Below are positions 1 through 12,778 of a stretch of 12,778 nucleotides of DNA, piece after piece. The stretch covers positions 1 through 12,778 of the forward strand of contig JASJBO010000125.1 of assembly GCA_030066475.1 (NCBI GenBank), given 5' to 3'. The position numbers and the translations under genes are program-made. The notes beneath the pieces were generated by a model. It saw only the letters and a program-made list of their open reading frames with translations, ran no database searches and was not told the DNA's origin. Position 1 is the stretch's first letter. Each line of letters begins with the position of its first letter. This DNA comes from Myxococcota bacterium (lineage in GTDB: Bacteria > Myxococcota_A > UBA9160 > PR03).

Positions 1-1352
1 ACGTCGGGGTGCTCGGCGGCCAGGTTGTTGTACTCGTTGGGATCGTCGGCGATCCGGAACAGGTAGTTGGTGACGCGGGCCGAGAGCAGGCCCTGGCGCA
101 CCTCCTGCACGAGCTTCCACTCGTCGTCGAACGCGGTCAGGCTGAACGAGCCGCGGATCGGCGTCTCGGAGGTGAAGTAGAGGTAGTCCTCGCGCGGCAT
201 GCGCTTGCCGGGCTGCGCGATGGCGGGCCACAGGCTGCGCCCGTCGAGCTTGCGCGTGTTGCGCGGCTCGACGCCGGCCGCCTCGGCCAGGGTCGGGAAG
301 ACGTCCATCACCGACATGATGCTGTCGAGCTTCGCGCCGGCGGGGATGCGCCCCGGCCAGCGCATCGCCGCCACCACACGGATGCCGCCCTCGAAGGTCT
401 CGCCCTTGCCGCCGCGCAGCGGCACGTTGTCGGCGCCGCCCGTCGCGTAGGCGGCCCCGCCGTTGTCGCTGAAGAAGAGCACGATGGTGTCGTCGGCGAT
501 ACCCTGCTCGTCGAGCGTGGCGAGCACCCGCCCGACGGCCTGGTCGAGCGCGTCCACGACGGCCGCGTAGATCGGGCGCGCGCTGTCCAGGAACATGAGC
601 TTGCCGATCTGGCGGGTGCGGTCGGTGTTCTCGCTGCGCGCCGGCTGGCGGTCGTCCTCCATGTCGGCGTAGCGGGCCTTCAGGTCGTCGGGCGCGTCGA
701 GCGGCGTGTGAGGGGCGATGAACGGCACGTACAGGAAGAACGGGCGCTCGGGGTCGCGCTCCCGGATCCAGCGCGACGCCTCGTCGGCCAGCAGGAAGGT
801 CTCGTAGCCCTGGTCGTCGATCGAGACGCCGTTGCGCTGGAAGTCCACGCCACCCTGGTTCCCGAACGGCGGGAAGTAGCCGACCTCGGTGTGGAGATGG
901 CCGTAGAAGTGGTCGAAGCCGCGCTGGTTGGGGTGGTAGGTCTGCTGGGCGTGCCCCAGGTGCCACTTGCCGACCATCGCGGTCTGGTAGCCGGCGGCCT
1001 GGAAGCTCTGCGGCATGAAGTGCTCGTCGGGATGGATGCCGATGTTGTGCCACGGCATGATCACGCCGTAGGCCACGCCCAGCCGCATCGGGTCGCGGCC
1101 CGTCATCAGCGCGGCGCGCGTGGGCGAGCAGATCGGCGTGGTGTAGAAGCGGTCGAGCTGCACGCCCTCGCGCGCGATCCGGTCGATCGACGGCGTGCGG
1201 ATCGACTCCTCGCCGTGGTAGCCGACGTCGGCCCAGCCGAGATCGTCGGCCAGGAAGATCACCACGTTGGGGCGCTCGGGCGCGGCGGCCGCCGCGCCGG
1301 CGGCGAGCAGCAGGAGCGCCGGCAGCGCGGAGGGGAGGCGTCGGTCACGCAC
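1..1352 (-). CDS. Exported formylglycine-dependent sulfatase (arylsulfatase family), 3' end beyond window
   Basis: Hydrolyses sulfate esters, probably in the periplasm; the substrate cannot be read from sequence. 450 residues are visible and the frame is still open at the window edge. It begins with a short basic/hydrophobic leader (residues 1-24, ending AAAA before PERPNVV), consistent with a Sec signal peptide. The N-terminal metal-binding motif is FLADDLGW (Asp36, Asp37). The maturation motif CSPTR (Cys75, Arg79) is the Cys-type site converted to formylglycine. GKWHLG (Lys129, His131) and a later FFSDNGG are also typical. The GTG start at 1352 is preceded by GGAGG (1358-1362) at 5 bases; no better ATG is present. 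The C-terminal ADDPNEYNNLAAEHPDV segment resembles the usual end of the family, so only a short tail is probably missing. It is the last visible gene of the sulfur-ester operon and overlaps the preceding small ORF by 8 bases. The family call is firm; substrate class is not. Confidence 0.95.
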   Translation of the reverse strand, partial: MRDRRLPSALPALLLLAAGAAAAAPERPNVVIFLADDLGWADVGYHGEESIRTPSIDRIAREGVQLDRFYTTPICSPTRAALMTGRDPMRLGVAYGVIMPWHNIGIHPDEHFMPQSFQAAGYQTAMVGKWHLGHAQQTYHPNQRGFDHFYGHLHTEVGYFPPFGNQGGVDFQRNGVSIDDQGYETFLLADEASRWIRERDPERPFFLYVPFIAPHTPLDAPDDLKARYADMEDDRQPARSENTDRTRQIGKLMFLDSARPIYAAVVDALDQAVGRVLATLDEQGIADDTIVLFFSDNGGAAYATGGADNVPLRGGKGETFEGGIRVVAAMRWPGRIPAGAKLDSIMSVMDVFPTLAEAAGVEPRNTRKLDGRSLWPAIAQPGKRMPREDYLYFTSETPIRGSFSLTAFDDEWKLVQEVRQGLLSARVTNYLFRIADDPNEYNNLAAEHPD

Positions 1353-1428
1353 GGAAGCCTCCGATCGGGTAGGCGTGATCGGCGAAGTCCTCGCGCGAGG
1401 GGTCGTCGACGAAGGCGTCGCCCGTCAC
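1345..1428 (-). CDS. Possible 27-aa small protein between sulfotransferase and sulfatase
   Basis: A 27-codon frame (GTG start, TGA stop) exactly fills the gap between the two flanking genes. Its GTG shares bases with the TGA of the sulfotransferase (GTGA), and its stop lies inside the first codons of the sulfatase, an 8-base overlap. The product starts VTGDAFVDDPS and ends HAYPIGGFRA; it is acidic in the first half and has no signal peptide or membrane segment. Codon third positions are mostly G or C, as in the neighbours. I do not recognise a family. It could be a genuine translationally coupled peptide, a degraded end of an older gene, or chance open frame in GC-rich DNA. Confidence 0.33.
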   Translation of the reverse strand: MTGDAFVDDPSREDFADHAYPIGGFRA

Positions 1429-2681
1429 CGCTCGGCCTCCACCCCGAAGCGCTCGAAGTAGAAGCCGAAGCGCTCGCGCAGTGCGTCGGGGTCGACGCCG
1501 AAGTCGGACTTCAGGTCGTAGAGGATGCGCCCGTGCACGCCGCGCGGGTTGTCGGCCAGGTAGCGCTCGAGCGACTGGCGCGCCTCGGCCGTCATCGGCA
1601 GCTCGGCCAGCGCGTAGATCCGCTCGACCATGGCCAGATCGTCCGCCATGAACTCGTGGAAGCGCACGTCGATGGCCTGCCCCTCGGGCAGCGCGTCGCG
1701 GTCGCGCGCGCAGGCGCGCAGCAGCCGCTCGACGCGGTCGATCCAGTAGGCCGCCACGGCGGGCGGATCCACGCGCGTGCGCCGGATGCGATCGCCGTAG
1801 GCGAGCATCGTGATGGCCGACGCGATCACCGCCACCGGGTCGCGGTGCGTGATCGCCACCGTCGCGTCCGGAAAGGTCTGCAGCAGCGGCCCGAGCTGCT
1901 CCAGGTGCTGCGGCGACTTCAGGATCCAGCGATCCGGGCCGCGCAGCCACTGGAGCGCCTGGAGCCCCTTCTTCAGGTAGGCGTAGTGCGGGGTCTGGTC
2001 ATGCGCGAGGTAGTAGTCGCGCCAGCGCGGCACCGTGGCGATCCACTCGAGCTCGTAGGAGGCGAAGTCGAGCGCCTGGACCTCGATCTCCTCGTGCACG
2101 TGCTCGGGCGACATGTCGTGCATGTTGCGCAGCAGCGGCGAGATCGCGATCTGCTGCTCGTAGCCCTGGCGGCAGCGCGCGAGCCGCGGGTCCACGCCGT
2201 CCGGCCCCGGCTCTTCGTCCGGGTCGGGAATCGGCTCGAGGCTCTCCCAGTAGGGCAGCGAGCGCAGCCGCCGATCGGCGGCGATCAGGTTGAGCAGGTG
2301 CGTCGTGCCCGAGCGCGGCAGCCCCGCGATCACGATCGGGCGGCGGATCTCGACGTCGAGGATCTCGGGGTGGCGCTTCAGCAGGTCCTCGAGCCGCAGC
2401 CGGTTGGCGGCGTAGCGGACGCAGTCGCGGTACGCGCCGACGCGGCCCACCGGACCGAGCTCCGCGTCCTCGTCGAGTGCCTGGAGCCAGACACGCAGCC
2501 GCTCGCGGAAGTCGTCGGCGCCGAAGTCGGACAGGCCGGTGCGCTGGCGGGCCTCGTCCAGCACCGCGTCCTCGCGAAACGCCACCGGCAGCTTCCCCGC
2601 CGCCTCGATCACCGTCTTCTGGAGCGGCGTCAGCTCGGGCGCGGCGAGGTCGGCGATGCGGATCGCTTCGGGGCGCGTCAT
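1425..2681 (-). CDS. PAPS-dependent sulfotransferase (Sulfotransfer_3-like)
   Basis: Predicted cytosolic enzyme transferring a sulfonate group from PAPS to a hydroxyl acceptor. The 418-residue protein carries the 5'-phosphosulfate loop VIAGLPRSGTTHL (about 117-129) and the 3'-phosphate-binding segment ITHRDPVAVIASA (277-289, Arg280 and Ser288), with WILKSPQHLEQL (252-263) between them. Length and spacing fit the bacterial Sulfotransfer_3 group, which includes mycobacterial Stf3 (sulfomenaquinone synthesis). The ATG at 2681 overlaps the TGA of the upstream MBL gene as ATGA, implying coupled translation; a longer frame upstream lacks homology and is discarded. The acceptor is unknown. Pairing with a P450 recalls CYP128-Stf3, where the P450 creates the hydroxyl that is sulfonated, but that analogy is inference. 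Function class is confident; role in biosynthesis versus modification of an imported compound is open. Confidence 0.93.
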   Translation of the reverse strand: MTRPEAIRIADLAAPELTPLQKTVIEAAGKLPVAFREDAVLDEARQRTGLSDFGADDFRERLRVWLQALDEDAELGPVGRVGAYRDCVRYAANRLRLEDLLKRHPEILDVEIRRPIVIAGLPRSGTTHLLNLIAADRRLRSLPYWESLEPIPDPDEEPGPDGVDPRLARCRQGYEQQIAISPLLRNMHDMSPEHVHEEIEVQALDFASYELEWIATVPRWRDYYLAHDQTPHYAYLKKGLQALQWLRGPDRWILKSPQHLEQLGPLLQTFPDATVAITHRDPVAVIASAITMLAYGDRIRRTRVDPPAVAAYWIDRVERLLRACARDRDALPEGQAIDVRFHEFMADDLAMVERIYALAELPMTAEARQSLERYLADNPRGVHGRILYDLKSDFGVDPDALRERFGFYFERFGVEAER

Positions 2682-3937
2682 CGCAGCGCCCCGCGCAGCG
2701 CGGCGACCTGCCGCCGCAGCCACGACGTGAGCCAGAAGTTCTCGCTCTGCTTCTCGAGCTGCTCGTGCGCGGCCAGGCTCACCTCGAGCGCGCCAGGATG
2801 GGCGGGGTCCGCGGCGAGCGCCACCTCGGCCAGGTGGATCGCCTCGACCGGCTCGCCCGCCTCGAGTCGCGCACGCGCGCGCGCCGCCACCGGGTCGGGG
2901 CCGCCGGCCAGCTCGACCAGGTCGCCGTGCACGCTCTCGGGCGGCGTCGCGTACAGCTCGGTGGTCGAGCGGTGGTGGAACCAGCCGGCGTAGGTCTCCC
3001 AGATCGCGCGCACGCTCCACGACACCTTGCCGTAGCCCTGCCCCACCTCGAGCCCGGGCGGCAGCTCGATCTCCCGCATCAGGGTGTGGACGTCCTTCCC
3101 CGCGTTCATGCCGCGCACCGTCGCGTCGTGCACGTACTCGACGGCGCCGCGCAGCCGCAGCAGCTCGTCGCGGATGAGCGCGCGGCCCGCGACCGGCCCG
3201 TGGTGCCCCACCAGCAGCAGCTCGGGCTCGAGCGCCAGCACGCGGTCGAGCGAGGCGATGAACTTCAGCGCCTCGCGGTAGCGGTCGCCGCGGATCGTCA
3301 CGAGGTTCGGGAAGTGCCCGAACAGCGCGCTGAACAGGTTGCCCGCGAAGCAGATGCCGTGCTGCGGCAGCCAGACCACCATCGAGTCGGTCGTCTCGCC
3401 GCCGGGCGTCGCCAGCAGCTCGAGGCGCACGCCGCCCAGCTCGAAGTCGAGCCGGTCGTCGAAGGTGAGCGTCGGCTCGGGCCGCGCCTGCGGCGACACG
3501 GTCTCGCCGAGGCGCTCGCGCACGTAGGCGTTGGCGCGCGCGATCGCCTCGGCGAACGCGAAGGCGCTGCGCCGGCCGCGGAAGGCGGCGATGCGCGCGT
3601 CGTCCGCCTGGTGGGCCGGGTTGCCCGCCTGGGCCACGATCTCGGTGCCCGCCTCGCGCAGCAGGTCGACGCCCCCCACGTGGTCCACGTGGCCCTGGGT
3701 CAGCAGGATGTAGCGGACCGGCCCCGCGTCGACGGCGTCGTAGTTGCGCTTGTGGACCGGCGCCTCGAAGCCCATCCCCGTGTTGACGATCACCCGCCCC
3801 TCGGCGGTGACCACGAGGTAGCTGTTGGACAGTCCCTCGGAGACCCAGACCAGGTCGTGCACGCGCCGCGCCTCGGGCTGCGAGGCGGGCTGGATCGCGA
3901 AGCCGTCGGGGCGCGATCGGTAGAGCGGCTCGGTCAT
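2678..3937 (-). CDS. Metallo-beta-lactamase-fold protein of the alkylsulfatase (SdsA1/BDS1) family, altered metal site
   Basis: 419 residues. The N-terminal two thirds is an MBL-fold hydrolase: NTGMGFEAP (52-60), LLTQGHVDHVGG (78-89), ATPGGETTDSMVVWLPQ (176-192) and LLVGHHGPVAG (241-251). Residues about 300-400 (YGKVSWSVRAIWETYAGWF and a helical tail rich in DP-A-H) match the alkylsulfatase dimerisation domain. The C-terminal SCP2-like domain of full-length SdsA1 enzymes is absent. The canonical HxHxDH is QGHVDH, so the first His is Gln81. The Glu of the usual AEN segment appears as Gly (FAGN, 197-200). His83, Asp85, His86, Glu181 and His245 remain. The ATG at 3937 has GAGGA just upstream and is preferred to an earlier ATG at 3970, which has no ribosome site. 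No signal peptide, so probably cytosolic. It could be a sulfatase on alkyl-type esters or a diverged hydrolase; alkylsulfatase family membership is firm, activity is not. Confidence 0.88.
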   Translation of the reverse strand: MTEPLYRSRPDGFAIQPASQPEARRVHDLVWVSEGLSNSYLVVTAEGRVIVNTGMGFEAPVHKRNYDAVDAGPVRYILLTQGHVDHVGGVDLLREAGTEIVAQAGNPAHQADDARIAAFRGRRSAFAFAEAIARANAYVRERLGETVSPQARPEPTLTFDDRLDFELGGVRLELLATPGGETTDSMVVWLPQHGICFAGNLFSALFGHFPNLVTIRGDRYREALKFIASLDRVLALEPELLLVGHHGPVAGRALIRDELLRLRGAVEYVHDATVRGMNAGKDVHTLMREIELPPGLEVGQGYGKVSWSVRAIWETYAGWFHHRSTTELYATPPESVHGDLVELAGGPDPVAARARARLEAGEPVEAIHLAEVALAADPAHPGALEVSLAAHEQLEKQSENFWLTSWLRRQVAALRGALR

Positions 3938-3963
3938 GGGTCCTCGCGGTCGGGTCGCCGGGG

Positions 3964-3999
3964 GGATCATACGCCCTGGGGAACGGGCGCCCCTGATCC
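3964..3999 (-). promoter_or_regulatory. Two-part hairpin in the tetR-MBL gap
   Basis: The only sizeable gap in this operon (70 bases between the tetR stop and the MBL start) holds an outer inverted repeat GGATCA (3964-3969) / TGATCC (3994-3999). An inner perfect stem CGCCC (3972-3976) / GGGCG (3985-3989) has an 8-base loop. A third GGATCA (4005-4010) overlaps the tetR stop. There is no T-run, so a classical intrinsic terminator is unlikely. It may be an RNA processing or stability element, or an operator. Visible structure only; role unknown. Confidence 0.3.
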
Positions 4000-4007
4000 G
4001 TTCTGGA

Positions 4008-4586
4008 TCAAGACGTCCTGGCGGGCACGAGCGGCGCCACGAAGCGTTCGACCAGCTCGCGCTCCTCGGCCTCGCTCTCGCCCGGCATGGCGAGCAGCGA
4101 CACCACGACGCGCGCCAGCCAGCGCGCCCGCAGCCGGCCGTCGGGATCGTCCTCGCGCGCGCCGAACAGGGCCGAGACGAAGCGCGCGTTCAGCGTCTCG
4201 ACCACCTCCGAGGAGCGCGACATCCGCGCCGCCATGCCGGACGCACCCGGCTCGAACCAGGCGGCCGTCCCCGGGTCGCGCCGCACCTCCTGGAGCGACC
4301 CGAGGATCGCCTCGGTGAGCCGCCGGCGCGGGTCCTCGATGTGCGCGAAGCGCTCGCGCAGGCGCTCGTTGATCGCCAGCGTCGCGCGCTCGACGTAGGC
4401 CAGGTGCAGGTCGTGGCGGGTCGGGAAGTAGCGATACAGCGTGCCGCGCGAGCACCCGGCGTAGCGGGCGATCTCGGCCATGCCGGCCGCCGACACGCCC
4501 AGCTCGATGAACGCCTTCTCGGCCGCGTCGAGGATCCGCTCCGCGGCGAGACCGGGCTGCTCCTCGCGCCCCCAGCCGCGCGCCAC
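4008..4586 (-). CDS. TetR/AcrR-family transcriptional regulator
   Basis: 192-residue one-component repressor. The N-terminal DNA-binding domain (about 11-60) includes the helix-turn-helix MAEIARYAGCSRGTLYRYF (36-54). The all-helical C-terminal ligand-binding domain is not assignable to a ligand class. The GTG start at 4586 shares a G with the TAG of the upstream P450 remnant (TAGTG). This start is supported by the paralogous position at 5842, where an ATG overlaps a P450 TGA in the same way (TGATG) and encodes the same MARGWGREEQ opening. Longer upstream frames read through the P450 remnant in a wrong frame and are rejected. As first intact gene of the sulfur-ester operon it probably autoregulates it, binding near the conserved element at 4679-4726, and possibly also the similar element before the intact P450. 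The ligand could be the P450 or sulfotransferase substrate. Confidence 0.92.
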   Translation of the reverse strand: MARGWGREEQPGLAAERILDAAEKAFIELGVSAAGMAEIARYAGCSRGTLYRYFPTRHDLHLAYVERATLAINERLRERFAHIEDPRRRLTEAILGSLQEVRRDPGTAAWFEPGASGMAARMSRSSEVVETLNARFVSALFGAREDDPDGRLRARWLARVVVSLLAMPGESEAEERELVERFVAPLVPARTS

Positions 4587-4631
4587 TATGCGGCCCGCGC
4601 CACGAAGGGGAGCGATTCGTAGCGGCGCACG
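4557..4631 (-). repeat. Paralogous repeat arm L, left copy (P450 3' end + tetR start)
   Basis: 75 bases matching 5813-5887 at 68 of 75 positions without gaps. It spans the last P450 codons and the first ten tetR codons (VARGWGREEQ). Homology stops abruptly inside tetR: this copy continues into the regulator, the other into unrelated sequence. With the 4632-4726 / 7001-7095 match it shows that two P450-tetR units once existed here. Confidence 0.85.
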
Positions 4632-4678
4632 GTCTCGGCGCCGCGGGGCTCGAGGGCGGGCTCGGCGGACGCGGGCAT
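4586..4678 (-). pseudogene. Internally deleted cytochrome P450 remnant (30 codons, in frame)
   Basis: The frame encodes MPASAEPALEPRGAETV followed directly by RRYESLPFVARAA. The first 16 residues match the start of the intact P450 at 5842-7047 (MPATAEPVFEPRSADT) and the last 14, VRRYESLPFVARAA, equal its last 14. Aligned without gaps, bases 4557-4631 pair with 5813-5887 (68 of 75 identical) and 4632-4726 pair with 7001-7095. The missing piece corresponds to 5888-7000, exactly 1113 bases or 371 codons. The ATG, GGGAGG ribosome site and promoter are all retained, as is the stop/start overlap with tetR. It cannot be a P450: the heme Cys, I-helix and ExxR motifs are gone. It may survive only as a leader that keeps tetR translation coupled. 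Confidence 0.9.
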
Positions 4679-4726
4679 TCGGAGCCTCCCAGGGAGGCAA
4701 CTATACAAGAACGGGGTTTTGTCCAA
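4679..4726 (-). promoter_or_regulatory. Promoter/operator region of the sulfur-ester operon, shared with the P450 promoter
   Basis: On the minus strand a TTGGAC box is followed 15 bases later by TATAGT (around 4701-4726), the latter preceded by TTCTTG. The same arrangement, ungapped, lies before the intact P450 (TTGAAC, 15 bases, TATATC). The pattern TTG-R-ACAAAA ... GTTCTTGTATA is thus kept in both copies. The 15-base spacer is short for a sigma-70 promoter, so exact boxes are uncertain. Likely the start of the operon and a site for the TetR protein. Confidence 0.5.
4684..4698. promoter_or_regulatory. 15-bp palindrome over the ribosome-binding site
   Basis: GCCTCCC and GGGAGGC flank a single central base; the GGGAGG is also the ribosome site of the P450 remnant. 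The equivalent position before the intact P450 keeps the ribosome site but not the palindrome. As DNA it could be a repressor operator; as RNA it could fold with a 5-bp stem and 5-base loop and mask translation. Either is inference. Confidence 0.4.
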
Positions 4727-4804
4727 TAGCGTAGAGCCACTCGCACGGCCCGGACGCGGGCTCGATTCCGGCCGTGCCGGCGGCCATGCGGGCGCAGCGC
4801 CGGG

Positions 4805-4829
4805 TCGAGCGTTCGCGGCAACCGCTCGA
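4805..4829. repeat. 7-bp inverted repeat (TCGAGCG / CGCTCGA)
   Basis: Perfect arms at 4805-4811 and 4823-4829 with an 11-base loop; a further TCGAGCG occurs shortly after, near 4848. A hairpin or protein-binding site is possible, but 7-bp arms arise by chance fairly often in GC-rich DNA. Confidence 0.3.
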
Positions 4830-4952
4830 TCTTGCCCGTCTTTGGTCGAGCGGATCGGCGAGTCCAGACGACCGCCCTTGCGCGCCTCACGGTGAGCTCG
4901 AGTCCGCCGCGGAGGACTGGGCGCCGCGGCGATCACCCACGACTCGGGAATG

Positions 4953-4986
4953 CTCGAAGGGGTGTTTTACACTCGAGCCTTCGGAG
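4953..4986. repeat. Nested inverted repeats around a TTT loop
   Basis: Outer arms CTCGAAGG (4953-4960) and CCTTCGGAG (4978-4986) pair with one bulged base. Inside lies a perfect GTGT-TTT-ACAC (4962-4972). The core is AT-rich for this genome. It could be an operator or an RNA hairpin between the two divergent units. Confidence 0.35.
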
Positions 4987-5230
4987 TCGATGGAAACGGT
5001 ACTCGGCGGACCTGACGGAAACGCTCGCGGAAGCTCGGCAGGAGAGACCAGTTGGTATTCGGCCGCCTCGCGTCCGTGGCCTCCCCGTTCAGGTGGACGC
5101 AGAACCGGGCGGCGGGCCGGCGAGCTCCGGACCTGCTCGAGCGAACGCCGTGGCTTCAAAAGCCCCGCTCCTCGGACTACCCTGAGCGATGCCGAGGCCG
5201 CGGCCACGCGGCAGGGGTCGCACAACGCAA

Positions 5231-5260
5231 CCAGACGCCACCGGACGCCACCCGACGCAC
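5231..5260 (+). repeat. 10-bp tandem repeat (CCRGACGCCA-like, three copies)
   Basis: Three consecutive 10-base units (CCAGACGCCA, CCGGACGCCA, CCCGACGCAC), with a weaker fourth just before (CACAACGCAA). The array sits about 25 bases ahead of the lipoprotein start. A period near one helical turn would suit a stacked binding site, or it may be a small slippage expansion. Confidence 0.55.
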
Positions 5261-5285
5261 CTGGAACATGGAGATAGGACGCACC

Positions 5286-5771
5286 GTGAAGAAGGACCTG
5301 GCCCTGCTCATCGCCCTGGCCCTGGCCGTGGCCTGTGATGAGGCTCCGTCATCTCACGTCTCCGGAATCGACGTAGAGAAGCTCGCGCCGGTCGAAGAGC
5401 TGGCCGCGTCGGTCGACTGCGCCGCGCTGGCGGCCGCCTGCAGATGCGCCGAGAGGATGGATCCCAAGGGGGGAGTGAATGCCCTGGGCGATGGGCGTGG
5501 AGCCCGAACCCCGGATAGCGTCACTGCAGGCGGCTTGGACGGTGCGATCGCGGCCTGCGAGAGGAGCATCGCGGGTCGCCTCCGCGACTACTCGCGGGAT
5601 GAGCGATGGGCCAGGCTCTTCGTGGCCGGCACCGGATCCCCGCGTACGGCCTGCATGATGAACCAGGCCGCCGACGCCGGCTTCCCGGGCGGACGCCAGG
5701 GTCTATGGGATGCCCTGGGTCTGGACCCCGGCCACTGGCGGCGCGCCCAGGACGTCTGCTGGAGGCGCTAG
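5286..5771 (+). CDS. Small Cys-rich predicted lipoprotein of unknown function
   Basis: 161 residues. The start is KK, followed by LALLIALALAVAC, giving a basic and hydrophobic signal ending at Cys17, a weak lipobox (AVAC rather than the usual L-A-G-C). The mature part has six further Cys (in SVDC, AAC, RC, AAC, TAC and DVC contexts), suggesting disulfides in an exported protein. I recognise no family. The GTG at 5286 has AGGA six bases upstream; the in-frame ATG at 5268 lacks a good site but would only add six residues. It points rightward, opposite to both P450 units between which it lies, and its stop overlaps the end of the tetR stub by a few bases (convergent). High G/C at codon third positions and a good ribosome site support expression. 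Lying at the point where P450-tetR homology breaks, it may have arrived with the rearrangement. Confidence 0.65.
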   Translation: MKKDLALLIALALAVACDEAPSSHVSGIDVEKLAPVEELAASVDCAALAAACRCAERMDPKGGVNALGDGRGARTPDSVTAGGLDGAIAACERSIAGRLRDYSRDERWARLFVAGTGSPRTACMMNQAADAGFPGGRQGLWDALGLDPGHWRRAQDVCWRR

Positions 5772-5842
5772 CTCGGGCCGGCCTTCACGACCCTTCCGCG
5801 AATCAGGGGAGCCTGCTCTTCGCGCCCCCAGCCGCGCGCCAT
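5768..5842 (-). pseudogene. Truncated tetR stub after the intact P450
   Basis: The ATG overlaps the P450 stop (TGATG) and the frame reads MARGWGREEQ, identical apart from the start residue to the opening of the TetR at 4008-4586. It then diverges (APLIRGRVVKAGPS) and stops after 24 codons. None of the helix-turn-helix remains. It is the 5' remnant of a second tetR lost to rearrangement, its end abutting the convergent lipoprotein gene. The conserved overlap shows the ancestral order was P450 then tetR, translationally coupled. Confidence 0.82.
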
Positions 5843-5887
5843 CACGCAGCCCGCGCCACGAAGGGGAGCGACTCGTAGCGCCGCACG
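5813..5887 (-). repeat. Paralogous repeat arm L, right copy
   Basis: Partner of 4557-4631 (offset 1256 bases, 68 of 75 identical). It covers the C-terminal codons of the intact P450 and the start of the tetR stub. Confidence 0.85.
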
Positions 5888-7047
5888 AAGTGGCCCGGCG
5901 CGTAGCGCCCGGCCTCGGCGTCGACCCGGAAGTCGGGGCAGCGCGCCAGCAGCTCCTCGATTGCGATGCGCGCCTGGAGCCGCGCCGCCGCGGCCCCGAT
6001 GCAGTGGTGCGGCCCATAGCCGAAGGTCATGATGCGCTTGACCCGGCGCGTCACGTCGCACGCGGCGGCGTCGGGCCCGAACTCGCGCTCGTCGCGGTTG
6101 GCCGAGGCGTAGAGCAGCAGCACCTTGCGGCCCTTCGGGATCGTACGGCCCTCGAGCTCGACGTCGCGCGTGGTGGTCCGCGCCAGGCCCTGCACGGGCG
6201 AGGTGAGGCGCAGGAACTCCTCGATGGCGTTCGGGACGCGCGCCGGATCCTCGAGCAGGTGGGCGCGCTGCTCGGGATGCCGGGTCAGCAGCTCGAGCGC
6301 GCCGCCCAGCAGCCCCGTGGTCGTGTCGTTGCCGCCGGTCACCATGGTGAAGCCGATGCCGAGGATCTTCGCGGCCGAGACCTCCTCGCCGGTATTGAGC
6401 CGGCCGTGCACGAGCGCCGAGATCATGTCCTCGCCCGGATCCCGGCGGCGCACCTCCATCAGGCCGGAGAAGTAGACCGCCATCTCGCTCACCGCCTCCA
6501 TGGCGCTGGCCAGGTCGCCGAGCGCGTTCGAGGCGACGATCGCCTGCGTCCAGCGGTCGAACAGCGCGCGGTCCTCACGCGGCACGCCCAGGAAGTGCGC
6601 GACCACGAGACTCGGCAGCGGCTTCAGCAGCTCGGCCACGACGTCGCCCTCGCCCACCTCGCGCAGGCGCTCGATGCGCTCCACCACGAACGCGCGGATC
6701 ATCGGGTCGAGGGCCTGCACCGCCTGCGGCGTGAAGCGCTTGATGGCGAGCTTGCGCAGCGCGGTGTGCTCGGGCGGGTCCATCATCACGATCGGCGACT
6801 CGACGCCGATCTTCCCCATCTCGTCGTACGAGAACGTCAGCCCCTGCGCCGACGAGAACGTGCCAGCGTCCACCGCCGCGTCGAACACGTGCTGGAAGCG
6901 CGACAGCACCCAGTAGTCCTCGCCCTGCCCGTTGTCCGGAACGCGGTGCACCGGGTCGTGCTCGCGCAGCGCGCGGTACATCGGGAACGGGTCGCGCCAG
7001 GTGTCGGCGCTGCGGGGCTCGAAGACGGGCTCGGCGGTTGCAGGCAT
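5842..7047 (-). CDS. Cytochrome P450 monooxygenase
   Basis: Soluble bacterial P450 of 401 residues, a normal length. Signatures are all present: I-helix oxygen-activation motif TGGNDTTT (237-244), ExxR at Glu277-Arg280 (EEFLRL), and the heme-binding loop FGYGPHHCIG (342-351) with Cys349 as thiolate ligand. MMDPPEHTALRKL (88-100) is the usual C-helix segment. The ATG at 7047 follows GGGAGG by about 7 bases; a TTG-initiated extension is rejected. The paralogous remnant starts at the same codon. It needs ferredoxin and reductase partners, none of which is in the window. CYP family and substrate cannot be named from sequence alone; closeness to a sulfotransferase operon whose own P450 was deleted suggests it hydroxylates the compound that is sulfonated. 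The gene is followed by a dead tetR, so control may now come from the TetR encoded at 4008-4586. Confidence 0.96.
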   Translation of the reverse strand: MPATAEPVFEPRSADTWRDPFPMYRALREHDPVHRVPDNGQGEDYWVLSRFQHVFDAAVDAGTFSSAQGLTFSYDEMGKIGVESPIVMMDPPEHTALRKLAIKRFTPQAVQALDPMIRAFVVERIERLREVGEGDVVAELLKPLPSLVVAHFLGVPREDRALFDRWTQAIVASNALGDLASAMEAVSEMAVYFSGLMEVRRRDPGEDMISALVHGRLNTGEEVSAAKILGIGFTMVTGGNDTTTGLLGGALELLTRHPEQRAHLLEDPARVPNAIEEFLRLTSPVQGLARTTTRDVELEGRTIPKGRKVLLLYASANRDEREFGPDAAACDVTRRVKRIMTFGYGPHHCIGAAAARLQARIAIEELLARCPDFRVDAEAGRYAPGHFVRRYESLPFVARAA

Positions 7048-7256: not shown

Positions 7257-9248
7257 ATGACGCTTCGCATCGGCGGGAAGTTCGCACTGGCCCAGGCCGC
7301 TCTGGTGCTCCTCTTCGTCGTGCTCGTGGGCCTGGTCCACCTGCTGGGTCGGAACGTCCGGGTGCAGGCGCACGACGTCGGCAGCGTGGAGGTGCCCTCG
7401 GCCCTGCTGTCGGTGTCGCTCATCGACGAGCTGGACGACATGAACGCGAACGTGCTCGAGTACGTTCACGGGGAGTCCGACGAGCTCGAGGACTTCGAGC
7501 GCAACCGGCGCAAGTTCGAGGCGTTCTACCAGGAGCTCCGCACCGTGTCGGACGACGAGTTCAGCGCGATCGCCGAGCTGGGACGCCTCGTGGCGGTCTA
7601 CGAGCACGAGGCGCGCTCGCGCGTCTTCGAGCGCTTCGACCCGGCCCTGGAGGCCTGGGCGAGCGAGCGCATCGACACGCTGGAGGAGGACTTCGCGAAG
7701 CCGCTGGAGCAGCTGCTGAACCGGCGCAAGGAGCGCGAGCTGGGTGCGGCCCGCGGCGCGGCCCCGCCGGGGCCGGGCGAGGTGCCCGCCGCGTCGCTCT
7801 ACGTCGAGCTGGTCGACGAGGTCGGCGACATGCGGCGGAAGCTGCACGAGTACGTCCGCGGGGTCGAGACCGCGGCGCAGCGCTTCGAGCGCGACGCCAG
7901 GTCCTTCGAACGCTTCCTGGCCAAGCTGCGCCCGCTCGAGCCCGAAGACCTCGACCGCATCGAGAGGCTCTACCACGGGCTGCGCGACGGCGCGCGCGAG
8001 ATCTTCACCCGCTACGACGCGACGGCCAAGCGCGATGCGCTGGCCGCCATCGACGCCCTGGAGCACGGCGTCTTCGCCGACATCGAGAAGAGGCTGGACG
8101 CCCTGGCGGCAGCCTCCCAGGGCGACTCGGACGCCGCGCTGGCGGAGCTGCTGGACCTGGTGGACGCCAACGAGCGCGTGCTGTGGATGGCCCTCGGCCT
8201 GATGCTGCTGGTGGCCTCGGGCGTCACCTTCTTCGCCCACAGCGCCATCGCGCGGCCCATCCAGGACTTGCACGACATGATGGCGGCGCTGACGAAGGGC
8301 GAGACGGGCATCGACGTCGCGCACACGAAGCGCCAGGACGAGATCGGCGCCATGGCCCAGGCGGTGCAGCTCTTCCGGGACAACACCGTCGCGCTGGCCG
8401 AGAAGACGGCGGACCTGGAGGCGCTGCCCGAGAAGCTCGGGAAGTACCTGTCGCCCCAGGTCTACAGCTCGATCTTCCGCGGCCAGAAGCAGGTGGAGGT
8501 GCGCGCCGAGCGCAAGAAGCTCACCATCTTCTTCTCGGACGTGGTGGACTTCACGGAGACCACCCACGACCTCGAGTCCGAGGAGGTCGCGGCCCTCCTG
8601 AACAGCTTCCTGACCGAGATGACGGTCATCGCCCTCGAGCACGGCGCCACCATCGACAAGTACATCGGGGACGCCTTGCTGATCTTCTTCGGCGACCCGG
8701 AGACGCGCGGCGTGCAGGAGGACGCGCGCGCCTGCGTGCGCATGGCGCTGGCCATGCAGAAGCGCCTGCAGCAGCTCCAGCAGGAGTGGCACGACCAGGG
8801 CTACGAGCGGCCGCTGCGCGCGCGCATGGGCATCAACACCGGCTACTGCGACGTCGGCAACTTCGGCAGCCCCGAGCGCATGGACTACACCATCATCGGG
8901 GGCGAGGTGAACCTGGCGGCGCGCCTCCAGTCGACGGCCGAGCCGGGCGGCATCGTGCTCTCGCACGAGACCTGGGCCCTCACCCAGGACCTCGTGAAGG
9001 CGGAGCGCGGCGAGCCGATCCACGTGAAGGGCATCCGCCGCGAAGTGACCCCCTACCGGGTGCTGAGCGAGTGGCAGGAGCTCGAGGCCGAGGGCCACGT
9101 GCTGCGCAAGACGCGGCCGGGCCTCGAGCTGCGGATCGACCTGCAGGAGCTGGCGCGCACCGCCGACGCGAGTAGCGGCGACGTCGAGCAGGTGGTCCAC
9201 GACCTCGAGGGCGTGCTCGAGGCCCTCAGGAAGACGAGCAAGAACTAG
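7257..9248 (+). CDS. Membrane-bound class III adenylate cyclase with duplicated sensor region and HAMP domain
   Basis: Predicted to make cAMP from ATP in response to an external signal. In the 663 residues: TM1 (about 9-31), a periplasmic helical region (32-307), TM2 (308-328), HAMP (about 330-380, with ARPI at 332 and DEIGAM at 361), and a catalytic domain (about 418-605). Metal-binding Asp428 and Asp472 are in FSDVVDF and KYIGDALL. Adenine-selecting Lys468 and Asp543 (MDYTIIGG), and the transition-state Asn552 and Arg556 (VNLAAR), are all present, so it should be active and ATP-specific. The periplasmic part contains two related modules (about 54-157 and 181-286). A 50-residue tail after the catalytic domain is unassigned. 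The ribosome site before the ATG at 7257 is weak (GGGCGGG region). Divergent from the P450 with a 209-base gap; no functional link is evident. Confidence 0.94.
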   Translation: MTLRIGGKFALAQAALVLLFVVLVGLVHLLGRNVRVQAHDVGSVEVPSALLSVSLIDELDDMNANVLEYVHGESDELEDFERNRRKFEAFYQELRTVSDDEFSAIAELGRLVAVYEHEARSRVFERFDPALEAWASERIDTLEEDFAKPLEQLLNRRKERELGAARGAAPPGPGEVPAASLYVELVDEVGDMRRKLHEYVRGVETAAQRFERDARSFERFLAKLRPLEPEDLDRIERLYHGLRDGAREIFTRYDATAKRDALAAIDALEHGVFADIEKRLDALAAASQGDSDAALAELLDLVDANERVLWMALGLMLLVASGVTFFAHSAIARPIQDLHDMMAALTKGETGIDVAHTKRQDEIGAMAQAVQLFRDNTVALAEKTADLEALPEKLGKYLSPQVYSSIFRGQKQVEVRAERKKLTIFFSDVVDFTETTHDLESEEVAALLNSFLTEMTVIALEHGATIDKYIGDALLIFFGDPETRGVQEDARACVRMALAMQKRLQQLQQEWHDQGYERPLRARMGINTGYCDVGNFGSPERMDYTIIGGEVNLAARLQSTAEPGGIVLSHETWALTQDLVKAERGEPIHVKGIRREVTPYRVLSEWQELEAEGHVLRKTRPGLELRIDLQELARTADASSGDVEQVVHDLEGVLEALRKTSKN

Positions 9249-9260
9249 CCCCACGAGCTT

Positions 9261-9300
9261 CGCCCGCGGGGCGGGAGCCGGATCGTCGCGCGCGGCGACG
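9261..9300. terminator. Paired GC-rich hairpins between convergent genes
   Basis: The cyclase (rightward) and radical SAM gene (leftward) end 77 bases apart. The gap contains CGCCC-GCG-GGGCG (9261-9273) and CGTCGC-GCGCG-GCGACG (9284-9300, 6-bp perfect stem). Neither has a T-run, so they are at best weak terminators or transcript-end stabilisers for both genes. Confidence 0.35.
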
Positions 9301-9325
9301 CGCTGCTCGCAGACCGCTCATATTC

Positions 9326-11221
9326 CTATTCCCTCGCCGGGAGTGCCAGGCCGAGGAGCTTGGAGTCCTCGCGATAGAGCAGCCTGGCACGATCGAGATC
9401 GTCCACCACCGAGTCGATGGTCGAGGGATCGAGCCGCCCATCGAAGTGCGCGAGGAGCTTGCGCCTGGTGACGATCGTCTCGTGCAGGAACTCGTAGACC
9501 TCCGCATGCGCCTCGCCGAACGCATGCTGGGTGCCACGCTCGTCGTAGCGCGTGTCGAAGAAGCACGCGCCATCCACGGCACGCTCGTAGGAGAGCTGCA
9601 CGGGTCGGCGCATCGCCAGATTCCTCCAGTGGAAGAGCTGATAGACGAGGATGTCGTACTGGTCGCTTACGTCCTGGTCGAACCGGTAGGGGCGCTCGAA
9701 GACGTAGCAGTACCGATCGGTGTCGAAGCCGATCTGCTCGCAGTACTCTCGCGACAGCATGATCTCGTAGCGGCGATTGGCCGCGAGCGGCGGAAGCCCG
9801 AAGCGGCGTGAATCCCGGTGCAGCGGGGCATATCGGGTCAGGAGCACGGGAACGTAGGTCTCCGGCGGCGGCAAGTGATAGAGGAGCGGAACGTTCCGGC
9901 AGACCGCCGCGTAGTCCTCGGCCTCCTCGCCGGGGAACCCGTAGAGCACGTTGTAGTAGAGCTCGATTCCCCTCGCAGCCATGAGCTTCAAGGTCAGGAC
10001 GTTCCGGATTCCGGTGACGCCCTTCTTGATCCGCTTGAGGACCGGCGTCGAGAACGACTCGATGCCGGCCTGCACGCGGTGAATCCCAGCCGCCTTCATC
10101 AGGTCCGCGTCCTGGGCCTTGATGTTCGACTTCATCTCCCAGTGCAGCCGATAGGGTGCGCCCATCGCGGCGAGATCCGGCAACAGCGTCTTGTAGAAGG
10201 CGCGAGGCAGGATGTAGTCGGAGAAGCGGAAGCGCGTGACCCCGTAGCGCTTCTCCAGCTCGGAGAGGATCATCTTCACGCGCTCGGACGACTTCGATCG
10301 GTAGACCATGGTCTCGTCGTCGATGCCGCAGAAGACGCAGTGATGCCGCTGGCCCCACCAGCATCCGCGAGAGCTCTCGACCGGCAGGACCTGGGTGTGG
10401 ATGTGCACGTCGTGATCGCCGGCGAGCTCGTCGAGGTCTCGGAACCAGTCGTCGTAGTCCGGCACCGGACTCGCATCCAGATCGTATCGGCGCGCGTCCT
10501 TCGGGTTGCTCCGGACGCGTCCGTCTTCTCCCCGGTACATGATGTCGGGGATGGTCCGAAGTCGCTTCCGATCGACGGACGCGCGGGCGAGCGCCGCGAC
10601 CTTGGGCTCGCCGTCACCGAAGGCGATGACGTCGACGAACGGAAAGGCGGCCAGGATCTCCGGCCCGACCGGTCGCTCGAGGGAGTAGCCCCCGAGGACG
10701 AGCAGCTTCTCGGGGAAGGCTTCCTTGATCCGCCTTGCGAGCGCCAGCGAGGCGAAGGTCTGATCGTACATGCAGGTGAACCCGACCATCGTGTAGTCGT
10801 CGCGGGCGACCCGCTGCATGCAGTCGTCGAGAAAGGCGGGCACGACCTCGTTCCGGGTCTTCAGCGCCTGATCGACATGGGGCACCGGGTCGTAGGACGC
10901 ACGCGCCGTCAGGTCGATCCGGTCGAAGGTGTCGCGCACCAGGCGCTCGATCGCTCGGATCTGCTCCGGTGCTACCGCCTCGCCCTGGAGCTCCTTCGTG
11001 AAGACGAAGTCGGTCACGGCCCAGGAATCGGCGGTGCCCTGGTAGGTGCCAGCCTTGAGGTACTTGAGCAGGAAGAGGTGGAGGTGCTGGACGCGACAGG
11101 GAATGCCGTGCCGTTGGAGCTCGGCCTTCAGGATCGCGAGCCCGAGCGAGGGCTCCCCGAGTGCGCCCCAAGGGAGGCTCAGCAGCAGCACCTTGGGCCG
11201 GGCTGCGTCTCCGCTCGGCAT
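9326..11221 (-). CDS. B12-binding radical SAM RiPP maturation enzyme (CX7CX2C family, probable C-methyltransferase)
   Basis: 631 residues. The N-terminal 250 form a cobalamin-binding-type domain (KVLLLSLPWG at 10-19, VGFTCMYDQTFASLALA about 146-162, LLVLGGYS at 173-180). The radical SAM core follows. The cluster motif is RGCWWGQRHHCVFCG, with Cys287, Cys295 and Cys298, that is CX7CX2C rather than the common CX3CX2C. This spacing with the CWWG...HCxFC context is characteristic of 'RiPP maturation radical SAM protein 1' enzymes, which act on ribosomal peptides and are often predicted C-methyltransferases. The core continues with QAGIESFSTPVLKRIKKG (384-401) and YNVLYGFPGE (423-432). A helical C-terminal domain (about 520-631) may bind the leader. 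It lies 17 bases after the precursor-like gene, surely one transcript. In a 60-base line I counted, G+C is near 58% against 68% in the cyclase, so transfer is possible. Confidence 0.9.
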   Translation of the reverse strand: MPSGDAARPKVLLLSLPWGALGEPSLGLAILKAELQRHGIPCRVQHLHLFLLKYLKAGTYQGTADSWAVTDFVFTKELQGEAVAPEQIRAIERLVRDTFDRIDLTARASYDPVPHVDQALKTRNEVVPAFLDDCMQRVARDDYTMVGFTCMYDQTFASLALARRIKEAFPEKLLVLGGYSLERPVGPEILAAFPFVDVIAFGDGEPKVAALARASVDRKRLRTIPDIMYRGEDGRVRSNPKDARRYDLDASPVPDYDDWFRDLDELAGDHDVHIHTQVLPVESSRGCWWGQRHHCVFCGIDDETMVYRSKSSERVKMILSELEKRYGVTRFRFSDYILPRAFYKTLLPDLAAMGAPYRLHWEMKSNIKAQDADLMKAAGIHRVQAGIESFSTPVLKRIKKGVTGIRNVLTLKLMAARGIELYYNVLYGFPGEEAEDYAAVCRNVPLLYHLPPPETYVPVLLTRYAPLHRDSRRFGLPPLAANRRYEIMLSREYCEQIGFDTDRYCYVFERPYRFDQDVSDQYDILVYQLFHWRNLAMRRPVQLSYERAVDGACFFDTRYDERGTQHAFGEAHAEVYEFLHETIVTRRKLLAHFDGRLDPSTIDSVVDDLDRARLLYREDSKLLGLALPARE

Positions 11222-11238
11222 CGCAGCGGCCCGGGGGC

Positions 11239-11799
11239 CTAGAGCTTTGCGTCGCGGTGCGGCGAGAGGTCCTCGAGCCAGACGCTGGGTTCGACTCCTT
11301 GCGGGTCGGCCGCATCACCATCGGGGTCCTCCATGAGCTCCTCACGGCTGACGACCGTGACGACGGCCTCGGCCACGATGATGGCGGCTGCGATCACCGC
11401 GATGCCGGCCGCGACCCAGCCCACGCCGTAGACGGTGTTGTCCTGCGGCATGGCCTTGATGCTGAAGCGCTTGTCGTACAGCCGCGCGAGCGCGGCCTCG
11501 GGCTCGAGACCCGTGATCTGCTCGACGCTCTCGGGTGAGAGCTCCCTGCCGAGGGCGCGGGCAACCTCGGCCGGACGACGGTGGAACTCATGGATGAAGC
11601 GGCCGTCGAGCACCACGTCGTTCAGGAAGGCCTCGAGCTCGCTGAACTCGGGGGGCGGCGGCGCGAGGGGCATCGTGCGCCCGCGTGAGGTGCCCGTTCG
11701 CGCGCCGCGCTTCGGACTTCGCCCGGGGGCGCGTGAGGAAGTCGGGTTCGAGCGCTCGCGTTGAGCCGAGGTGGTCGAAGAGGGTTGGGGTGAGGCCAT
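11239..11799 (-). CDS. Candidate RiPP precursor with leader-like domain and hydrophobic core
   Basis: 186 residues. Residues 1-42 are Ser/Arg/Pro-rich and low complexity. Residues about 51-112 look like a RiPP leader: FSELEAFLNDVVLDGRF, then RRPAEVARALGRELSPESVEQ, predicted helical, with the dp..va..lG..ls pattern seen in many leader peptides. Then comes a hydrophobic stretch beginning VYGVGWVAAG (123-132) and rich in Val/Ile/Ala to about 150, and a polar acidic tail (SREELMEDPDGD onward). The ATG at 11799 has GGGAGGAG eight bases upstream and is preferred; an internal ATG at 11673 (MPLAPPPP) would remove the low-complexity part but lacks a ribosome site. Position directly before a RiPP radical SAM enzyme is the main argument. 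The hydrophobic stretch could be a modified core (compare proteusins) or a transmembrane helix. No clear GG/GA cleavage site. The protein family is not one I can name. Confidence 0.65.
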   Translation of the reverse strand: MASPQPSSTTSAQRERSNPTSSRAPGRSPKRGARTGTSRGRTMPLAPPPPEFSELEAFLNDVVLDGRFIHEFHRRPAEVARALGRELSPESVEQITGLEPEAALARLYDKRFSIKAMPQDNTVYGVGWVAAGIAVIAAAIIVAEAVVTVVSREELMEDPDGDAADPQGVEPSVWLEDLSPHRDAKL

Positions 11800-12097
11800 C
11801 CGAGCGACTCCTCCCAGGATCTGCGACCAGGTGGCGCAACCAACAAGTGCCATGTCTGGGGCGCTCATGTCAAGGAGACGCCGAGACGGCCCGATGACGC
11901 CCCGCGCGCAGGCGAGCTGCGGGTCCTGGCGCGCTTCGCGCGAGCCGGAGACGCGCCGCGGGCCGTGAAATCGCCCCGGGATGGGCCCCTATCCCCTCGC
12001 CCCTGCTTGACATGAGCAGACGCTATCGGTCCTCGAGCTGAAGGCGGGGCCGCCGATCCAGCAGGTGGCCTGCGTGACGGCGTACACCCGCCGGGCC
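11800..12097. other. Non-coding region between RiPP genes and the edge gene
   Basis: About 300 bases without a credible gene. It should hold the RiPP operon promoter. A TTGACA on the minus strand (11868-11873) lies about 70 bases before the precursor start, but the base runs 16-18 further on are poor -10 matches. The middle part is very GC-rich with no sizeable hairpin plus T-run for the gene ending at 12098. Confidence 0.45.
11863..12017. repeat. 12-bp perfect inverted repeat with TTGACA in each arm
   Basis: GCTCATGTCAAG (11863-11874) and CTTGACATGAGC (12006-12017) are exact reverse complements 131 bases apart. Each arm contains a consensus -35 hexamer, pointing outward: left toward the RiPP genes, right toward the end of the leftward gene at 12098. 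Could be an operator pair, ends of a small element, or chance. Confidence 0.55.
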
Positions 12098-12778
12098 TCA
12101 GCAGCCGAGGTCCGGCGCCTTCGTCTGCTCGAAGCGGCCCGGCGGTGCGCGATCGGGTCCCCCACCTTCTGGGGCGCAGTACTCGTCGACGGGGGTCACG
12201 GAGGCCACCCCGACCGTCGCGTTCTCCCTCACCACATACTCGCTGGCGCCGATGCTGGAGTTGGGGTTGCCCCAGTCGTATGTGTAGCCGAGTCGCGTCC
12301 ATGGGTAGGGCCTCTCGTAGTACCCCTCGAACTTCTGCTGGAACCAACGTGCGTGCGCGAGGGCTTCGACGTACTCCTTCTCTCTCGCGGCCGTGGCCTG
12401 CGACTCCTCCGGCGCCTGCACCGCGGGAGGGCCCTCCTGGTCTTCGGCTTCTTCGGGCGCTTCGGGGATGGCGGGCAGGCCCCGGCGGCAGGTGCGGTCC
12501 TCGATGTCCGGGTCGGGGCACGGGCGGAAGACGTCTCCCGGCTCCACCCACAGCTCGACGATCGAGCCCTTCGCGGGCCCCGGTCGGAGCCCGAGGTACT
12601 CCGCGATGCGCTGCTCGACTTCTGCGCCAGAGAGCGCGAACGCGCGGCACTGCTCCTGCAGCTGGGGCACTGGAGAGACCCAGACGGGCTTCTTCAGCTT
12701 GCACTCCTTGCGCTCGTTGTCCGGGTAGCCGTGGTAGGAGGCGAAGGTGGCCACCAGGACGCGCGGCGGATTGGTGCC
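12098..12778 (-). CDS. Protein of unknown function, N-terminus beyond window
   Basis: 226 residues are visible and the frame is open at the right edge, starting GTNPPRVLVATFASYHGYPD. The C-terminus is ...KAPDLGC. It has six Cys spread along the chain (KEC, QC, RPC, RTC, EYC, LGC), an acidic Pro/Glu/Ala-rich linker (about PEAPEEAEDQEGPPAVQAPE), and an aromatic segment YPWTRLGYTYDWG followed by SEYVVRENATVGV. The pattern of Cys and the aromatic beta-like segment suggests an exported or envelope protein, but the signal region is outside the window. I recall similar YPWTRLGYTYDWG-type hypothetical proteins but cannot name a family. Any GTG at 12754 is only an internal codon as far as can be seen. 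It is transcribed in the same direction as the RiPP genes, about 300 bases upstream of them, so linkage is possible but unproven. Confidence 0.75.
   Translation of the reverse strand, partial: GTNPPRVLVATFASYHGYPDNERKECKLKKPVWVSPVPQLQEQCRAFALSGAEVEQRIAEYLGLRPGPAKGSIVELWVEPGDVFRPCPDPDIEDRTCRRGLPAIPEAPEEAEDQEGPPAVQAPEESQATAAREKEYVEALAHARWFQQKFEGYYERPYPWTRLGYTYDWGNPNSSIGASEYVVRENATVGVASVTPVDEYCAPEGGGPDRAPPGRFEQTKAPDLGC

Follow-up and report, generated by a model that had tools for sequence, protein, structure and literature searches.

A small precursor-like gene and the gene of a radical SAM enzyme of the RiPP maturation type lie side by side in the window (the whole stretch of 12,778 nucleotides that was analysed), and the same pair was found in 10 other loci, in at least four phyla. 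The apparently new part is a precursor family whose members accompany a single clade of enzymes from a known and very large family. On balance, we favour leader-guided C-methylation of a Val/Ile stretch of the small protein by the paired enzyme, the two genes acting as a self-contained cassette. The hosts include named isolates (Massilia timonae, Mesorhizobium, and Rhizohabitans). Since expression of only two genes is needed, it becomes practical to test directly which substrates stand-alone B12/radical SAM C-methylases choose, and whether these enzymes also act on proteins that remain unexported.

The gene pair and its enzyme

The first-pass annotation described a compact locus with a precursor-like gene 17 bases upstream of a CX7CX2C radical SAM enzyme. 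Both ORFs were found where claimed, and the gap between the precursor stop and the enzyme start (11222-11238) measured 17 bases. The features are as follows.

9326..11221, minus strand: radical SAM C-methyltransferase gene (TIGR03975), ORF of 631 aa
9332..9610, minus strand: winged-helix-like C-terminal domain of the enzyme, residues 538-630, possibly leader-binding (RRE-like), from the model
10328..10363, minus strand: CX7CX2C cluster motif, enzyme residues 287-298, CWWGQRHHCVFC
10589..11194, minus strand: N-terminal B12-binding-like domain, residues ~10-211, from structure alignment to OxsB, TsrM, and TokK
11239..11673, minus strand: gene of the precursor-like small protein, ORF of 144 aa, with paired homologues in 10 other loci
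11242..11271, minus strand: conserved tail D-L-S-P-H-R-D-A-K-L, precursor residues 135-144
11350..11418, minus strand: Val/Ile/Ala stretch, the proposed core, precursor residues 86-108
11464..11646, minus strand: Os1348-like helical leader, precursor residues 10-70, with invariant D23-G24-R25 and S46

The right edge given earlier for the locus, 11799, had to be moved, being upstream of the likely start of the precursor. This start is probably the ATG at 11673, chosen because the homologues agree (the 131-aa relative P0129 begins in the same region); a codon-usage gene caller also picks it. No sigma-70-like promoter was found at 9200-12200. A B12 riboswitch at the pair was discarded, the Rfam search at gathering score having returned one tRNA only across 8 sources.

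The assignment of the enzyme to the RiPP maturation radical SAM type, made at first from the motif, was borne out by the profile search: it scored 479.9 bits against TIGR03975 (cut-off 281.85), full length over model positions 1-606 of 606. Its motif RGCWWGQRHHCVFCG corresponds to C287-X7-C295-X2-C298, and C-x7-C-x2-C was present in 35 of 35 rows of alignment A1, the window enzyme among them. The enzyme is an ordinary member of TIGR03975, a known family of large size, with at least 1413 proteins at E ≤ 0.001 when 7997 candidates were scored. Its best non-self identity was 55-56% among the matches listed. The plasmid search with the enzyme gave 103 records, all below 60% identity (the best 30 of the 103 at most 32.3%), and a scan of genome contigs with one enzyme sequence as query found no relative.

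The AlphaFold2 model of the enzyme had a mean pLDDT of 93.4, and its nearest folds were OxsB, MgmA, AprD4, TsrM, TokK, and CysS. MgmA, TsrM, TokK, and CysS are methylases; OxsB and AprD4 are not. As modelled, the enzyme has the fold shared by cobalamin radical SAM enzymes and related proteins, methylases and non-methylases alike. Binding of cobalamin is judged likely from this model and no more than that, since the score against PF02310 (B12-binding) was 22.7 bits, under the gathering value of 32.1, despite the fold. CobS was present in 9 of the 10 host genomes. In the C-terminal domain the model shows the order of elements EEE-HHH-EE. Alignment of this domain with a 5-row PqqD alignment by hhalign gave a probability of 65%, other proteins (transcription regulators and further unrelated ones) gave matches that were equally weak or better, and none of the matches is clearly an RRE; because the domain was modelled within the whole enzyme, the missing RRE or named fold carries no weight. 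By the model, these last ~90 residues could bind the leader.

A precursor family and its enzyme clade

The leader-like helix proposed earlier for the small gene resembles a known fold, the top match being Os1348 (6lk7). This match is weak, and that to SonA, a RiPP precursor, is weaker still. Against NF038399 the window precursor scored 30.7 bits, with a cut-off of 40, and all 14 precursors tested stayed under the cut-off (the window and 13 relatives, 10 of which match, while P0122, P0127, and L111 have no match at all). In L003, L112, and L113 the match sits on an extra upstream repeat and not on the conserved DGR leader. These are the long precursors of 275-284 aa (L003, 7118-7945; L112, 7761-8615; L113, 8481-9323), which carry two leader-like repeats and an extra N-terminal domain of ~110 residues with no Pfam match. 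Neither the window precursor nor the relatives tested matched a curated family of Pfam or NCBIfam above its cut-off. With the single precursor sequence as query only itself was found, and the search of plasmids with it gave no match.

We then built the search on a precursor profile, which was run on six partly overlapping sets of 95, 297, 245, 200, 74, and 146 genomes (limits of E 0.01 for the first four and 0.001 for the last two). Strong matches (E ≤ 1e-15) were obtained in nine genomes and weak ones (3e-4 to 0.007) in four. The first-pass annotation had held that precursor homologues lacking a radical SAM neighbour would speak against the pair, and the outcome is in its favour; the enzyme adjoins the precursor in all nine genomes with strong matches and, within 1.5-kb flanks, in none of the four with weak ones. 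Three of the latter (L104, L105, and L108) look like chance matches and were rejected. The fourth, L100, lies at a contig start and was rejected as well; it is an NHLP-like ORF of 128 aa (21-407) with Gly-Gly and a short core, a different and ordinary-looking precursor.

Seen from the side of the enzyme, the profile matched 11 of 84 enzyme loci at E < 10, and in all 11 the top match was the same-strand neighbour of the enzyme gene. In the tree of the 84 enzymes, a quick one computed without bootstrap, these 11 and L007 form a 12-row clade with SH-aLRT 100. The contig of L007 begins inside the enzyme gene. The hosts of the precursors seen include members of Rokubacteria, Bacteroidota, Actinomycetota, and Pseudomonadota, and that of L007 is from Armatimonadota. 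The pair is patchy: in one genus 3 of 146 genomes gave strong matches, and in another 3 of 74. Precursor and enzyme distances are correlated (r 0.91 over 10 pairs, with 0 of 10000 permutations as high), as is expected from shared descent or joint inheritance alone. Outside the paired loci, the upstream genes were of other kinds among those listed of the 72.

The Val/Ile stretch, the tail, and the proposed reaction

The Val/Ile/Ala-rich stretch noticed after the leader was located at residues 86-108, with 11 Val or Ile, 8 Ala, no Leu, and one Glu, and its composition exceeds what is expected by chance, being Val/Ile-rich and leucine-poor. The most hydrophobic 15-mers of 17 precursors had on average 9.6 Val + Ile and 0.65 Leu + Phe, against 4.25 and 4.89 in 57 control windows of similar hydrophobicity drawn from 126 non-precursor genes in the ten sources of 10 of the precursors; since the precursors are related, the 17 may represent some six or seven independent cases. 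At least 7 Val + Ile with at most 1 Leu + Phe were present in 8 of the 10 precursors of the ten sources and in 1 of the 57 control windows.

The stretch is also partly conserved. Synonymous and nonsynonymous changes in it numbered 6 and 0 for L005/L114, 6 and 0 for L006/L114, and 8 and 0 for L004/L111, while the leader has many. Of four pairs of relatives compared at the DNA level, three were thus free of amino-acid change, in two of three lineages; L112/L113 showed no such difference between stretch and leader, and there the stretch has diverged. The stretch was better kept than the leader with p < 0.05 in three of seven pairs (L005/L114, 0.04, and L004/L111, 0.0007, both by Fisher test; P0127/P0128, 0.009), and the difference was not significant in the other four (L112/L113, 0.75; P0123/P0124, 0.89; P0129/P0130, 0.13; P0129/P0132, 0.22). 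Taking into account that the precursor model gives the stretch as a low-confidence helix, it could be an ordinary membrane helix.

A second conserved element, absent from the first-pass annotation, is the C-terminal tail, whose form D-x-S-x5-K-L is common to the window precursor and relatives. The loose pattern D-x-[SRK]-x3/x5-[KR]-[LMFVI]-end was found in 17 of 17 precursors and the strict form D-x-S-x3/x5-K-[LMF] in 13 of them. Among 136 called genes in the 10 sources only the 10 precursors had the loose pattern, and among 16,218 six-frame ORFs there were 19 occurrences of it, 11 in precursors, and 9 of the strict form, all in precursors; because the patterns were written from the same sequences, these counts describe specificity and are not an independent test. 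We placed the window tail at residues 135-144 because only that end fits D-x-S-x5-K-L; the MAFFT alignments instead set D116 in the conserved tail column (alignment A3 leaves out P0131, which has no C-terminus). The spacer between stretch and tail is of 26 residues in the window and of roughly 7-16 in relatives. Among the precursors the tail is more widely kept than the exact stretch.

With these elements the following mechanism can be proposed. The two genes would constitute a self-contained cassette for the modification of a peptide or protein. The Os1348-like leader would dock on the enzyme, with the winged-helix domain at the C-terminus as a possible site, and docking would put the Val/Ile-rich stretch into the active site. 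There, with SAM and methylcobalamin, the enzyme would C-methylate unactivated carbons of Val, Ile, or both, most likely at C-beta and probably repeatedly, in the manner of PoyC in polytheonamide. The tail would be another constant part, which may serve in recognition or in processing at a later stage; any cleavage would be a further, presumed step. C-methylation of Val/Ile within residues 86-108 is proposed because of the precedent of PoyC and polytheonamide. In the passages available, the polytheonamide and bottromycin methylases are proposed to act on C-beta and to share the unconventional Cx7Cx2C motif, and valine methylation by PoyC is demonstrated in vitro (PMC5682303); a passage of another paper has PoyC methylating Ile3, Val5, Val10, and Val21 (PMC11285071). 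A hydrophobic aliphatic stretch, as suggested earlier, would be a fitting substrate for a C-methylase of this type.

The proposal is supported by the full-length TIGR03975 match, the CX7CX2C motif, the cobalamin radical SAM folds, the pairing, the leader fold, the beta-branched stretch, and CobS. It is weakened by the low B12 score in Pfam, by OxsB and AprD4 being non-methylases, by the leader score under the cut-off, by the tail being kept in more precursors than the exact stretch, by the four pairs whose stretch is not better kept than the leader, by the low-confidence helix modelled for the stretch and the Glu in it, and by the lack of a protease or exporter among the genes searched. Given the tail, the partly conserved stretch, the precursors of 275-284 aa, and the lack of a common export gene, an exported peptide is less obvious than the first-pass annotation assumed. 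A bolder reading, which we hold only tentatively and consider rather doubtful, is that the product is a stable intracellular or membrane protein of a mobile two-gene system, with the Val/Ile strand hardened in place by multiple C-beta methylations and the tail as a functional end. It is allowed by the long relatives, by the lack of a common exporter or protease, and by a stretch that some lineages conserve, in contrast to a hypervariable one.

The proposed methylation competes mainly with two other readings, one in which the tail is modified and one with a different radical reaction. The first, in which the enzyme modifies the D-x-S...K-L tail and the Val/Ile stretch does no more than anchor the protein, in a membrane or as a beta-strand, is unlikely. 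The tail is indeed present in every precursor, including L112 and L113 with their diverged stretch, and among the called genes it is exclusive to them, but the stretch has little leucine, in contrast to the other hydrophobic segments at these loci, and is free of amino-acid change in two of three lineages; the known CX7CX2C relatives, as far as the passages at hand describe them, act on Val, Ile, and similar residues.

Equally improbable is a conventional exported RiPP, with the stretch cut from its leader and exported by proteins encoded elsewhere, an arrangement compatible with methylation. Peptidase C39 domains occur elsewhere in 7 of 10 host genomes, the leader resembles Os1348, the cluster of which lies beside putative efflux genes in the part of its description available, and L112 and L113 have Gly-Gly between leader and stretch. 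However, 3 of the 10 hosts gave no C39 match (one of them a draft MAG), the neighbours examined have no exporter in common, and Gly-Gly at that position is absent from 8 of 10 precursors, the window one included.

A different radical reaction on the stretch (cyclopropane formation, cross-linking, epimerisation, or desaturation instead of methylation) is decidedly unlikely. OxsB and AprD4 are among the nearest folds and yet are not methylases. TvgB converts Val to cyclopropylglycine in a RiPP (PMC9062424), and PMC13331322 names non-methylating cobalamin radical SAM enzymes, both in the passages available. Against this, the portion of the TvgB work at hand places it in a different radical SAM subfamily, TIGR03975 is named as a C-methyltransferase family, and the Cx7Cx2C enzymes cited are C-methylases in the excerpts consulted.

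That the genes are chance neighbours, the small protein being an unrelated membrane protein and the enzyme having another substrate, is very improbable, for although the evidence linking them is genomic, the enzyme is adjacent at all nine strong matches, the paired enzymes form a single clade, the genomic surroundings mostly differ, and the leader is RiPP-like.

Known systems and genomic surroundings

The proposed methylation has its closest likeness in PoyC, compared here by partial description, which shares Cx7Cx2C, the cobalamin radical SAM architecture, and an aliphatic Val/Ile substrate. Polytheonamide differs, by the accounts available, in undergoing epimerisations and other modifications besides C-methylation, whereas in the window a single enzyme was seen, with a leader resembling Os1348 and a tail that is conserved. 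Os1348 of Pseudomonas sp. Os17 (6lk7, NF038399) is the best fold and profile match of the window leader, and its gene likewise precedes predicted modifying-enzyme genes in the passages at hand; however, it has 85 aa, by the same passages, against the 144 aa of the window precursor, which is under the family cut-off, and the text of its paper has 0 occurrences of "radical SAM", such an enzyme being present in the window pair.

Classical NHLP/Nif11 precursors are similar in having a folded leader followed by a C-terminal region, with genes beside maturases. They differ, according to the available part of PMC2887384, in Gly-Gly and hypervariable cores; the window precursor has no Gly-Gly, and its stretch is conserved better than the leader in some close pairs. 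Identity as a classical NHLP or proteusin was rejected in view of the score under the cut-off, the absence of Gly-Gly in the window, and the lack of recognised partner maturases; Pfam showed no proteusin-type epimerase or other maturase in the window genes tested or among 17 neighbours of nine related loci (4 of them with no match). The earlier statement that no known product class is evident is supported. TvgA/TvgB likewise belong to a RiPP pathway in which a radical SAM enzyme modifies repeats that contain Val; they differ, in the passages of PMC9062424 available, by TVGG repeats, cyclopropylglycine, and the other subfamily, and the word cobalamin is absent from that paper. Within the abstracts and passages covered, most subscription papers lying outside them, no Val/Ile-rich precursor with a stand-alone TIGR03975 enzyme was described, and an assay of any enzyme from this clade was likewise not found.

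The absence of a transporter, protease, or second modifying enzyme from the window, noted at first from the sequence alone, agrees with Pfam, by which none (no second RiPP maturase either) was found in seven window ORFs, the pair included. The same-strand gene upstream of the pair (12098-12754) has no Pfam or NCBIfam match. A P450 (5842-7047) was rejected as partner, as it lies beyond an opposite-strand cyclase gene and no P450 was found by Pfam among the 17 neighbours of the relatives. On the minus strand of window 1-7047, the P450 is accompanied by a TetR regulator and an alkylsulfatase-type metallo-beta-lactamase-fold protein (all by Pfam), and by genes that appear sulfatase-like and sulfotransferase-like.

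Gene calls in the window and the nine related loci, with Pfam on the 17 neighbours, showed surroundings that mostly differ: trigger factor, zinc dehydrogenases, LysR, MarR, sulfatase, transglycosylase, alpha/beta hydrolase, and others. L006, outside the gene-called set, has the upstream neighbour of L005. No exporter, protease, or second enzyme common to the loci was found among the neighbours examined. In L112 two same-strand genes of 87 and 153 aa, 10 bases apart and with no Pfam match (8625-9359), lie directly upstream of the precursor, possibly as part of a larger operon in that genome; in L002 a gene of 188 aa overlaps the end of the enzyme gene, and in L111 an RND pump precedes the pair. 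The neighbours in these three loci speak against a strict two-gene view, but none is shared. Genes that look ABC-like lie ~6 kb off in L003, L112, and L116, and these are not shared among the loci either.

The genome G006, one of those with the two-gene pair, also has a second enzyme homologue, L088 (C75:6444-8321, 330.8 bits), 1.5 kb from a Peptidase C39 (C75:4601-4963), so that it has the conventional exported-RiPP arrangement for a different enzyme. Other enzymes of the TIGR03975 type (L008, L014, L022, L026, and L063) follow, in the downstream direction, large proteins with Pro-Ile-rich repeats at the C-terminus, for example PIQPIQPI and KPIKPI. Those of L021, L056, and L059 follow genes with Cys-rich repeats of the CTIRACTI type and that of L067 a gene with PIIRQ repeats, which, from their sequences, apparently represent further kinds of substrate.
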